Assembly (NCBI GenBank): GCA_027459845.1
Contig: DAIDGS010000160.1
Span: forward strand, 1-59,349
Length of the DNA: 59,349 bases
Direction: 5' to 3'
Source of the DNA: Vulcanimicrobiota bacterium
Lineage (GTDB): Bacteria; Vulcanimicrobiota; Vulcanimicrobiia; Vulcanimicrobiales; Vulcanimicrobiaceae
Under the pieces are notes generated by a model. It was not told the origin of the DNA and did no database searches. It saw only the letters and a program-made list of their open reading frames with translations. A program made the translations under genes and the position numbers. Below, piece by piece: positions 4,187-31,132 of the stretch. Within the stretch, counting starts at the first letter, position 1. Each line of letters opens with the position of its first letter.

Positions 4187-5400
4187 TCGAAGCGCAGCGC
4201 CTCGATCGGGTTCAACTGCGCGGCGCGCTGCGCCGGATAGTAGCCGAAGAAGATGCCGACCAGCGCCGAGAACGCCACCGAGAGAACGACCGCGGCCGGC
4301 GGAATCTGGGTCGGCCAATGTGCGGCGAGCGCGATGGCGGTGGTGCCGGCGATGCCGACCACGACGCCGACCGCACCGCCGGCGGTCGCGAGCAGCGCGG
4401 CCTCGGCCAGAAACTGCCGCAGGATCGTGACGCCGCGCGCGCCGACCGACATACGCAGGCCGATTTCACGCGTGCGTTCGCTCACCGAGACCATCATGAT
4501 GTTCATGATGCCGATGCCGCCGACGATCAGCGAGACGGCCGCGACGCCGGCCAGCAAGAACTCGAGCACCGCACCGGTCGAGGCGGCCGCTTGGGCGATC
4601 GACTGCAGGTTGCGTACCTGGAAGTCGTCGGGCTGTCCGGGGGCGATCCGGTGGCGCGCCGCGAGCAGCGTGGTCGCTTCGTTCTGGACCGCGTCGATCA
4701 CGTTCGCGCTGGCCGCCGAGACCATCAGTTGATTGACGGTCGTCAGCCCGGTGAGCCGCTCCATGGCGGAGGTATAGGGGATCAGGACGGTGTCGTCCTG
4801 GTCTTGACCCATGCCGCTTTGCCCGAGCGGCGTCAAGGTGCCGATGACGGTGAACGGCACGCCCTTGATGAGCACCGTCGCGCCGATTGGGTTGCTGCCG
4901 TCGGGAAAGAGTTGCGCGATGACGGTTTGGCCGAGCACCGCGACCTTCGCTGCGGCCGCGTCGTCGCTCTGCGTGAAGAAGCGCCCGCTGGCCAGCGGCC
5001 ACGACTTGATAAACGTATACGAGGGCGCGACTCCGCTGACCGAGGTTTGCCAGTTGTTCTGTCCGGCGACGACCTGCGTGCGCAGCGTCACCAGCGGTGA
5101 GACCGCCGCGACGCCGGGCAGCGCCGCGATCGCCAGGCCGTCCTGCGGCGTGAGCGTCGAGGCGCCGCTGAATCCGCTGCGGGCGCCTCCCGCGGTGATG
5201 CTGCCGGGTTGGATCACGATCAGGTTGGCGCCGAGTTTCTGAATGTTGGTCTGCACCTGCGCGCTGGCACCGACGCCGATCGCGATGGTCACGATGACGG
5301 CCGCGACGCCGATGACGATGCCCAGCATCGTGAGCAGCGAGCGCGTGCGGTTGCGCACCAGCGCCGCCAGCGCCAGGCGCAGCGTTGCCGTGGCGTTCAT
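4183..5400 (-). CDS. MacB/FtsX-type ABC transporter permease
   Basis: A 405-residue permease of the type VII (mechanotransmission) ABC class. There is one membrane helix at about residues 20-45 ([22 protein letters not shown]), a large MacB_PCD periplasmic domain, and three C-terminal helices of the FtsX fold, beginning [21 protein letters not shown] with the conserved [14 protein letters not shown] loop. Unlike E. coli MacB, the ATPase is a separate protein. With the upstream adaptor it should form a tripartite system exporting a periplasmic substrate such as a drug, peptide or lipid. Start and stop overlap both neighbours by 4 bases. Confidence 0.92.
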
Positions 5401-27307: not shown

Positions 27308-28459
27308 GTGAGGTCGCTGCGGCTCGGATTCTTCACCGAGGTCTATCACCCGGTCGTCAACGGCGTGGTCGCGTCGGTCGACGCGCTGGCGGCCGGGCTG
27401 CGCGAACGCAGCCATCAGGTGTACTGCTTTGCGCCGCGCGTCCCCGGCTACGACGACGGGCACTCGGTCTATCGCATGCCCTCGCTGCCGCTTCCGACGC
27501 GCACGCCGTACCGATTGACGCTGCCGCTGGTCAGCCGGCGCAACGTGAACACCGTCATCAAGCGCCTGGCGTTGATCCACGTCCACTCGCCGTTCGTCAC
27601 CGGATGGATGGGGATGCGGTACGCGCGGCGCTACGGTATGCCGTTGGTCTACACGTATCACACCCAACTCGAGGCCTACGCGCACTACGTTCCGTTTGAA
27701 CCGAATGCGACGCGCTACGCGGCCTCGCAACTGACGCGCACCTTTGCCAACGCCGCCGATGCAGTGGTCGTGCCGACGCCCGCGATGGCGGCGCGCCTAC
27801 GCGATCTTGGGGTGACCGCGCGCATCGAGGTGGTGCCCAGCGGCATCGACGTACGCCACTTCGGCTCGGGACGACGCGATGCCGCGTGGCGGCGGCGGGC
27901 CGGCGCCGGCGCGGGCGACCGGCTCATCCTGTGCGTCTGCCGGCTCGCCAAAGAGAAGAACGTCGAGCTGCTCTTCGAGGCGCTGGCGCATGCCGACGAT
28001 CCGACGCTGCGCTTGGGAATCGCCGGCGACGGCCCGGCGCGCGAGGAACTGGAGCAGCGGGCGAGCGAGTGCGGGGTGGCGGAGCGCGTGCGCTTCATGG
28101 GGGTCGTCGACCGGGCCGACCTGCCCGATCTCTATGCCAGCGCCGACGCCTTCGTGATGCCGAGCACCACCGAGACGCAGGGCCTCGTGCAGGTCGAGGC
28201 GCTCGCGGCCGGCATTCCGGTGATCGCCGCCGACGCACCGCAGAACCGCCAGGTGCTGGGCGAGGCCGGGATCGTGATCGCGCCCAACGCGCGCGCGTTC
28301 GCCGGCGCGCTCGCCCAGGTTCCGGCGTGCCCCGACCCGCTCGAAGCCGCCCGCTGGCGCGCGGCCGCGCAGCGGTTTGCGATCGAGGCACAGATCGAGC
28401 GCATGGAAGCGCTCTACGATAGCCTGATCCCGGTAGCGGCGATCCCCGACTCGGCTTGA
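27308..28459 (+). CDS. GT4-family glycosyltransferase (MgtA/PimB-like)
   Basis: A 383-residue GT-B enzyme. RLGFFTEVYHPVVNGVVASV at the N-terminus, HVHSPFVTGWMG, YHTQLEAYAHYVPF and the donor motif STTETQGLVQVEALAAGIPV (E-x7-E) are typical of the GT4 group acting on lipid acceptors such as diacylglycerol or phosphatidylinositol mannosides. The GTG at 27308 gives the canonical start. The 344 bases upstream hold the divergent leader of the G5/3D gene, the short hairpin-forming repeat GTGGAGGTCCAC, and no other gene. The SOS-type promoter lies directly after its stop. Confidence 0.87.
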   Translation: MRSLRLGFFTEVYHPVVNGVVASVDALAAGLRERSHQVYCFAPRVPGYDDGHSVYRMPSLPLPTRTPYRLTLPLVSRRNVNTVIKRLALIHVHSPFVTGWMGMRYARRYGMPLVYTYHTQLEAYAHYVPFEPNATRYAASQLTRTFANAADAVVVPTPAMAARLRDLGVTARIEVVPSGIDVRHFGSGRRDAAWRRRAGAGAGDRLILCVCRLAKEKNVELLFEALAHADDPTLRLGIAGDGPAREELEQRASECGVAERVRFMGVVDRADLPDLYASADAFVMPSTTETQGLVQVEALAAGIPVIAADAPQNRQVLGEAGIVIAPNARAFAGALAQVPACPDPLEAARWRAAAQRFAIEAQIERMEALYDSLIPVAAIPDSA

Positions 28460-28485
28460 TTGCGAACGTATGTTCGTAGTATACT
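28456..28485 (+). promoter_or_regulatory. Sigma-70-type promoter with embedded SOS (LexA) operator
   Basis: TTGATT (28456-28461) and TATACT (28480-28485) are separated by 18 bases. The spacer contains the perfect palindrome CGAACGTATGTTCG (28463-28476), which fits the Gram-positive-type LexA/DinR consensus CGAAC-N4-GTTCG. An operator between -35 and -10 is the classic arrangement of LexA repression. The expected start is near 28492, leaving a very short leader with GAGGA before the ATG at 28507. lexA itself is not in the window. Confidence 0.8.
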
Positions 28486-28506
28486 CGGGTTGAGGAACCA
28501 ACGAAC

Positions 28507-28935
28507 ATGCGCAGCACCGGCCACCGTCCCGAGTCCATCGACGCCACCGTCGTCGCGGCCGCGGATATCCACGGGCGGGGGGTCGCGTATGCCCGGCTGC
28601 GGTCGCCCGGCGGCGAGCGCGTGGTGCGCGTACCCTTCGATCTCCCGAACGAGGCGCGCAACGTCCCGCACGCGGTCGGCTACGTCGCGGCGACTGCGGT
28701 CGCCGGAACGCTGGCGGCGCGCGGCATTCGCCGGGCGGTCTTCCACCTCGACGACCCCGACGTCGTCGACGATCTCAACGGCCGGCGCGGCGTACCGCCG
28801 GCGCTGGTGCTGCCGTACGTGCGGCTGAAGTGCGCGCTCAACGCCTTCGAGCGCTGCGGCGTCGCGCTTGCGAGCGGCGAGGACGATCTGCGCCAGCGCG
28901 CCCGCGCCGAGGTTGCGGTGAACGTGGCCGCGTAA
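28507..28935 (+). CDS. RNase H-like fold protein, probably SOS-controlled
   Basis: A 142-residue protein that looks like a small RNase H-type domain: an N-terminal strand pair (VVAAADIHGRGVAYARL), a helix (YVAATAVAGTLAARG), a strand with acidic residues (AVFHLDDPDVVDDLNG) and a C-terminal helix (LPYVRLKCALNAFERCGV). The usual catalytic Asp and Glu positions are not clearly kept, so nuclease activity is doubtful. It is the first gene behind the SOS-type promoter and precedes a DNA glycosylase by 9 bases, which suggests a DNA-damage role. The fold call is by eye. Confidence 0.6.
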   Translation: MRSTGHRPESIDATVVAAADIHGRGVAYARLRSPGGERVVRVPFDLPNEARNVPHAVGYVAATAVAGTLAARGIRRAVFHLDDPDVVDDLNGRRGVPPALVLPYVRLKCALNAFERCGVALASGEDDLRQRARAEVAVNVAA

Positions 28936-28944
28936 GCGGCAGCG

Positions 28945-29586
28945 ATGCACCTTCGTCCGCTGCGCGCGCGCACGCTTCCTATAGAGACATGTGCGCTGGC
29001 ACGCGCGCTGATCGGGTCTATCCTCGTCAGCGAGTCGGCCGCGGGCCGCTCGGCCGGTCGCATCGTCGAAACCGAAGCCTACCCGCCGGACGATCCGGCC
29101 TGCCACGCACGCGTCGGCAAGACCGAGCGCAACGCCACGCTCTTCGGCCCACCGCTGCGCGCCTACGTCTATCTCGCGTACGGCAGTGCGTTCTGCTTCA
29201 ATCTCGCCAGCGAGCCGTCCGGGGTCGGTGCCGGCGTGCTGGTGCGCGCGCTCGAGCCGCTCGACGGCGTCGCGCTGATGCGCGCGCGGCGCGGCGGTGC
29301 GCGCGAGCGCGACCTCTGTCGCGGTCCGGGGCGCCTCTGCCGGGCGCTCGCGATCGACCGGCGCGACGACGGCGTAGCGCTCTTTTCGGCCGGGAGGCTG
29401 TGGCTGGCGCAGCCGGATCGTCCGGTCGGAGCGCTAGCCGCGAGCGCGCGGATCGGTATTGCCCGAGCGGCCAAGCGGCGCCTGCGCTTCTTCGACGCGT
29501 CCAGCGCGTACGTCAGCGGCTCGGCCACCTTGAACCACCACCCGCGCTGTGTTATATTGAGGCCGTCGCGCAGCTCTACGGGCTGA
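28945..29586 (+). CDS. DNA-3-methyladenine glycosylase (AAG/MPG family)
   Basis: A 213-residue base-excision glycosylase that removes alkylated purines. Family motifs: LARALIGSILV, GRIVETEAYPPDDPACHAR (with the catalytic Glu), RNATLFGPPLRAYVYLAYG, and GVGAGVLVRALEPLDG. The C-terminal part (CRGPGRLCRALAI) matches the family's substrate pocket. It lies 9 bases after the RNase H-like gene, apparently in the same SOS-controlled operon; control by LexA would be notable, since alkylation glycosylases usually belong to the Ada response. The rho promoter overlaps its 3' end. Confidence 0.92.
   Translation: MHLRPLRARTLPIETCALARALIGSILVSESAAGRSAGRIVETEAYPPDDPACHARVGKTERNATLFGPPLRAYVYLAYGSAFCFNLASEPSGVGAGVLVRALEPLDGVALMRARRGGARERDLCRGPGRLCRALAIDRRDDGVALFSAGRLWLAQPDRPVGALAASARIGIARAAKRRLRFFDASSAYVSGSATLNHHPRCVILRPSRSSTG
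29530..29558 (+). promoter_or_regulatory. Promoter of rho, with a leader of about 160 nt
   Basis: TTGAAC (29530-29535) and TATATT (29553-29558) with a 17-base spacer form one of the best sigma-70-type promoters in the window, inside the end of the glycosylase gene. Transcription would start near 29565, about 164 nt before the rho ATG. The leader holds a GTCGCG...CGCGAC helix (around 29564-29596) and no obvious ribosome site near 29729. Rho in E. coli represses itself through its leader, so this leader may serve the same purpose. Confidence 0.6.

Positions 29587-29728: not shown

Positions 29729-31132
<1,404 letters not shown>

Follow-up and report, generated by a model that had tools for sequence, protein, structure and literature searches.

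In SOS regulons of the Bacillus subtilis type, the Gram-positive LexA operator has the consensus CGAACRNRYGTTYG, and in Bacillus lexA and yneA are arranged divergently. Base-excision glycosylases are also found under SOS control, i.e., in the SOS-controlled uracil-DNA glycosylase operons COG1573-COG4277 (PMC8565304) and in the SOS-linked alkA-ogt of M. tuberculosis (PMC8151990). For Eremiobacterota, a lineage of soil bacteria about which little is known, an incomplete literature search found no paper on LexA or its operator, and a similarly limited and incomplete search found no SOS-controlled glycosylase of the MPG type. The locus described here is located in a window of 59,349 nucleotides, the whole stretch of DNA that was analyzed (contig DAIDGS010000160.1 of a Vulcanimicrobiota bacterium, assembly GCA_027459845.1), and comprises the following features:

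28456-28485, + strand: sigma-70-type promoter TTGATT-18 nt-TATACT, identified by consensus scan, with -35 and -10 at a constant distance from the box in 82 distinct promoters
28463-28476, + strand: putative LexA operator CGAACGTATGTTCG in the promoter spacer, assigned from its sequence, genome enrichment, siting at SOS genes and occurrence in 61/62 relatives' loci
28507-28935, + strand: gene for a 142-aa protein of predicted RNase HI fold (AlphaFold2, Foldseek), from a lineage-specific family with relatives in the class only; probable main conserved target of the operator
28945-29586, + strand: gene for a DNA-3-methyladenine glycosylase (MPG/AAG; PF02245), second gene of the operon, 9 nt after the first

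The box CGAACGTATGTTCG is the sole zero-mismatch CGAACN4GTTCG in the window and occupies the spacer between TTGATT (28456-28461) and TATACT (28480-28485), upstream of both genes. This placement within an 18-base spacer, already proposed in the initial annotation, agrees with the sequence and with the consensus scan, by which two such promoters were detected in the region compared to 0.1 expected. The -35 element shares bases with the stop codon of the glycosyltransferase gene that lies upstream (27308-28459), and the two downstream open reading frames, of 142 and 213 aa, are separated by 9 nt. The box had also been described as a perfect 14-base palindrome; however, only 12 of the 14 bases are palindromic, namely the two arms (CGAAC/GTTCG) and the inner TA, and positions 6 and 9 (G/T) break the symmetry. 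Sites with no more than one mismatch to CGAACN4GTTCG occurred eight times in the window versus 5.9 times expected, which is chance level. The one-mismatch boxes elsewhere in the window were therefore discounted, and only the exact site was taken to carry meaning. The 3' end of MPG harbours a second sigma-70-like promoter at 29530-29558, TTGAAC-17-TATATT with TG ahead of the -10, from which rho (start at 29729 or 29831) is probably transcribed.

Throughout the genome (2.72 Mb on 205 contigs), CGAACN4GTTCG was found at 23 sites versus 2 for the reversed control, and the looser CRAACN4GTTYG at 38 versus 4. The four-base core between the arms varies among these copies. As about ten of the 23 sites are located inside genes, where they may be idle, the pattern alone does not prove function. 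The initial annotation had suggested looking for the box at lexA and recA of the same genome, and it occurs at both: one copy lies between lexA, whose product comprises LexA_DNA_bind and Peptidase_S24 domains, and a divergent LysM gene, and another, a 14-mer identical to that of the window, 39 nt before ftsY, behind which RecA is encoded. Further boxes precede an imuA-like gene by 17 nt, followed by an imuB-like gene (IMS_C), the B12-dependent ribonucleotide reductase gene nrdJ by 66 nt and the Lhr helicase gene lhr by 36 nt; the name imuA-like is based on position and resemblance, as the protein itself has no Pfam match. This ribonucleotide reductase (L035:478-5196) also contains an intein with a LAGLIDADG domain.

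Within the class, at least one and usually two or three boxes were located close upstream of lexA in all 23 genomes tested, a count in which CRAAC-N4-GTTYG was accepted as well as, in a few genomes, one additional change (no more than one mismatch to CGAACN4GTTCG). In other classes of the phylum, seven lexA-like genes had no such box, and the looser CRAACN4GTTYG pattern was not enriched in four genomes tested outside the class; in some class genomes its excess over the control was small. A perfect box was present upstream of recA in all genomes tested of family f1 (15/15) and family f2 (2/2), and the recA of family f3 had no box within 1.5 kb. In four genomes (G008, G024, G053, G057) a second RecA-like gene, imuA-type by position, has a box nearby. 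Most f1 genomes share a fixed box core (CGAACAGGAGTTCG) upstream of recA (loci L204-L219), unlike the alternating purine-pyrimidine cores at other SOS genes. In addition, in the genome of the window a LexA-box-like palindrome was observed 24 nt before the first of two istA/istB-like transposase genes (IS21-type, by sequence resemblance), with copies at L025:2413-2426 and 5343-5356 (palindrome within ATCGCGAACATCCGTTCGCGAT) and near contig ends in L242, L243, L248, L249 and L251. This palindrome may reflect SOS-controlled transposition or may merely be part of the element's own inverted repeat.

At the gene for the 142-aa protein, a zero-mismatch box was present in 61 of the 62 relatives' loci with readable upstream DNA, and the remaining one (L072) carried a single mismatch. 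A second collection, which overlaps the first in part and in which most record titles read Candidatus Eremiobacterota or Eremiobacteria, yielded perfect boxes in 41/41. Two records (L136, L139) have the locus of Eremiobacterota under the title 'Rhodospirillales bacterium' and probably represent mislabelled bins. Among 82 distinct box-anchored promoters, the ten arm positions hold 1.9-2.0 bits each, and the -35 (TTGAC-like) and -10 (TAtaAT-like) elements occur at a constant place; most other flanking columns hold less than 0.4 bit, and therefore the surrounding DNA has drifted while box and promoter were held. Operator sequence, placement, conservation and operon structure can be read directly from the DNA. 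The variable four-base core and the genomic copies within coding sequence would be in line with a chance match or with the operator of another repressor, in which case the operon would be outside the SOS response. However, the near-universal conservation of the box in the promoter, the presence of the motif at lexA and other SOS genes and its lack of enrichment in classes whose lexA has no box make this extremely improbable, and chance in particular is ruled out by the enrichment of both patterns together with the conservation over the 82 promoters. The LexA-type SOS operator that had initially been claimed is thus upheld by enrichment (23 versus 2), siting at lexA/recA and conservation (61/62), and, as judged by sequence comparison, the box almost certainly functions as an operator for LexA, its CRAAC-N4-GTTYG type being the one employed in this class of Eremiobacterota.

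The second gene encodes a genuine MPG, as had been annotated: its 213-aa product scored 193 bits with PF02245 (cut-off 27) and 183 bits with NCBIfam NF002003 (cut-off 182). Its tight coupling to the first gene in families f1 and f2, where the MPG match starts -5 to +58 nt from the stop of the small gene in 45/51 loci, could indicate that the actual SOS cargo is MPG, with the small protein as its helper or a leader gene. However, six f1 loci lacking an adjoining MPG (L037, L038, L044, L081, L082, L085) keep both box and small gene. In family f3, the next gene after the small one lies on the opposite strand wherever its call is clear (e.g., L230, L231, L232, L234), and MPG, which lacks its own perfect box, is located about 1-9 kb beyond. 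MPG is also present in only part of the class. As the box persists irrespective of whether MPG is nearby, it is the small gene to which SOS control is tied, and MPG falls under this control through its location. The MPG-less loci retaining box and small gene rule out MPG as the main target, and a role of MPG as the actual cargo appears very improbable. We consider it highly probable that the small gene is the main conserved SOS target and MPG a passenger. The proposed SOS control of the operon was hence supported, but the emphasis placed on the glycosylase was not.

Relatives of the 142-aa protein were identified in 63 of 78 related genomes, and a profile search found them in 105/149 genomes of the phylum, all within the class and nearly always in single copy. 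A mobile origin was rejected, as phage and plasmid records contained no relatives. The window protein has no known domain in Pfam (including RNase_H and RVT_3), PHROGs or PADLOC and only sub-threshold matches in NCBIfam; RVT_3 was matched by 5/60 relatives, at best with 6e-5. A PDB search with the single protein gave no match, and a search with the family profile only a weak one to RNase H1 (E 0.41). Because the box is conserved in practically every relative examined, the protein very probably belongs to the standard DNA-damage response of these bacteria, and the family very probably represents a previously undescribed, lineage-specific SOS gene.

The initial annotation had called the protein RNase H-like and pointed to structure prediction against RNase H folds. 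An AlphaFold2 model built from 42 sequences (pLDDT 87.9, pTM 0.83) displayed the secondary-structure order b-b-b-a-b-a-a-b-a, and its top Foldseek match was the H. salinarum RNase H1 4e19 (E 6e-8, TM 0.72/0.77); all of the best 50 matches listed were either RNase H proteins or RNase H domain-containing reverse transcriptases. On the basis of this model, we confidently assign the protein to the RNase HI fold. The active site was read from a sequence alignment to the genome's own RNase HI, which is separately encoded and has intact catalytic motifs. Of the catalytic carboxylates D-E-D-D, only D83 is clearly conserved. The gapless alignment sets position 82 on the catalytic aspartate, and residue 83 was assigned by a one-residue shift because this makes the D-x-x-L-V spacing match. 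The helix-A glutamate position is occupied by G, A or S in the family (A56 and G58 at this site in the window protein, G58 at the position itself), and the first and last catalytic aspartate positions are variable. Y104 and C109 are invariant and N112 is nearly so, and the protein is basic (pI 9.3). The earlier term therefore holds for the fold but not for the activity, for which most RNase HI catalytic carboxylates are missing in the alignment; 'RNase H-like' would accordingly describe what the protein resembles rather than what it does.

The fold, together with residue 83 being acidic in 60/60 members, D89 in 98%, positions 56, 127 and 135 in 77% each and D20 being present in 33/60, would also be compatible with an active nuclease whose catalytic site is rearranged, under the regulation set out below. 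Such a site could consist of D20, E56, D83 and D127, or be a new one on D83, Y104, C109 and N112, with RNA-DNA hybrids or damaged DNA as substrates during the SOS response. However, in the window protein the site of the helix-A glutamate is occupied by A56 and G58, D20 and D127 are not retained in family f3, and a true RNase HI is already encoded in the genome, so that we regard a nuclease as unlikely. For the specific role of a non-catalytic, nucleic-acid-binding SOS effector, we see about an even chance.

Taken as a whole, the combination of LexA operator, small gene as target and non-cutting binder is the explanation we consider likely. LexA binding and damage induction at the locus are both predicted from sequence: LexA on the box would cover the spacer between -35 and -10 and block transcription, and upon DNA damage RecA-stimulated LexA self-cleavage would release the promoter. 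The conserved output would be the 142-aa protein with the RNase HI fold. Where MPG is directly behind, as in most members of two families, its co-induction would contribute base-excision repair of alkylated purines. The small protein itself would most likely bind nucleic acid, either RNA-DNA hybrid or the DNA of stalled forks, without classical RNase H cutting, and may serve in repair as an accessory or a blocking factor. More tentatively, and with slightly less than even confidence, we propose that it is a new core SOS effector of the whole class, i.e., a damage-induced nucleic-acid binder with an RNase HI fold that has lost the greater part of its catalytic site, and with a LexA operator among the most tightly conserved in these genomes. 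For a phylum whose members are known almost only through metagenomes, the analysis defines a specific LexA operator and part of the SOS gene set, and it places an undescribed protein family in the DNA-damage response from its regulation alone. It also indicates a route for MPG into SOS control, namely by position behind a gene of the SOS response. Should RNA-DNA hybrids or stalled forks prove to be where the small protein acts, it would represent an SOS effector of a new kind.

Compared with known systems, the locus resembles Bacillus subtilis-type LexA/SOS regulons in the arm sequence, in the position of the box within the promoter and in the presence of boxes at lexA with a divergent LysM gene, at recA and at error-prone polymerase genes, but differs in belonging to another phylum and in having an extra, lineage-specific target with an RNase HI fold. 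The 142-aa protein shares the fold and secondary-structure order of RNase HI (RnhA; H. salinarum 4e19, the M. tuberculosis Rv2228c domain 3hst, E. coli) and the aspartate at the end of strand 4. Unlike RNase HI, its family has G, A or S in place of the helix-A glutamate, variable first and last catalytic aspartates, the newly conserved Y104/C109/N112 and a putative SOS promoter. Like the COG1573-COG4277 (PMC8565304) and alkA-ogt (PMC8151990) operons, the locus would place a base-excision glycosylase under SOS control; here, however, the glycosylase is an unrelated MPG/AAG and most probably a passenger behind another SOS gene.
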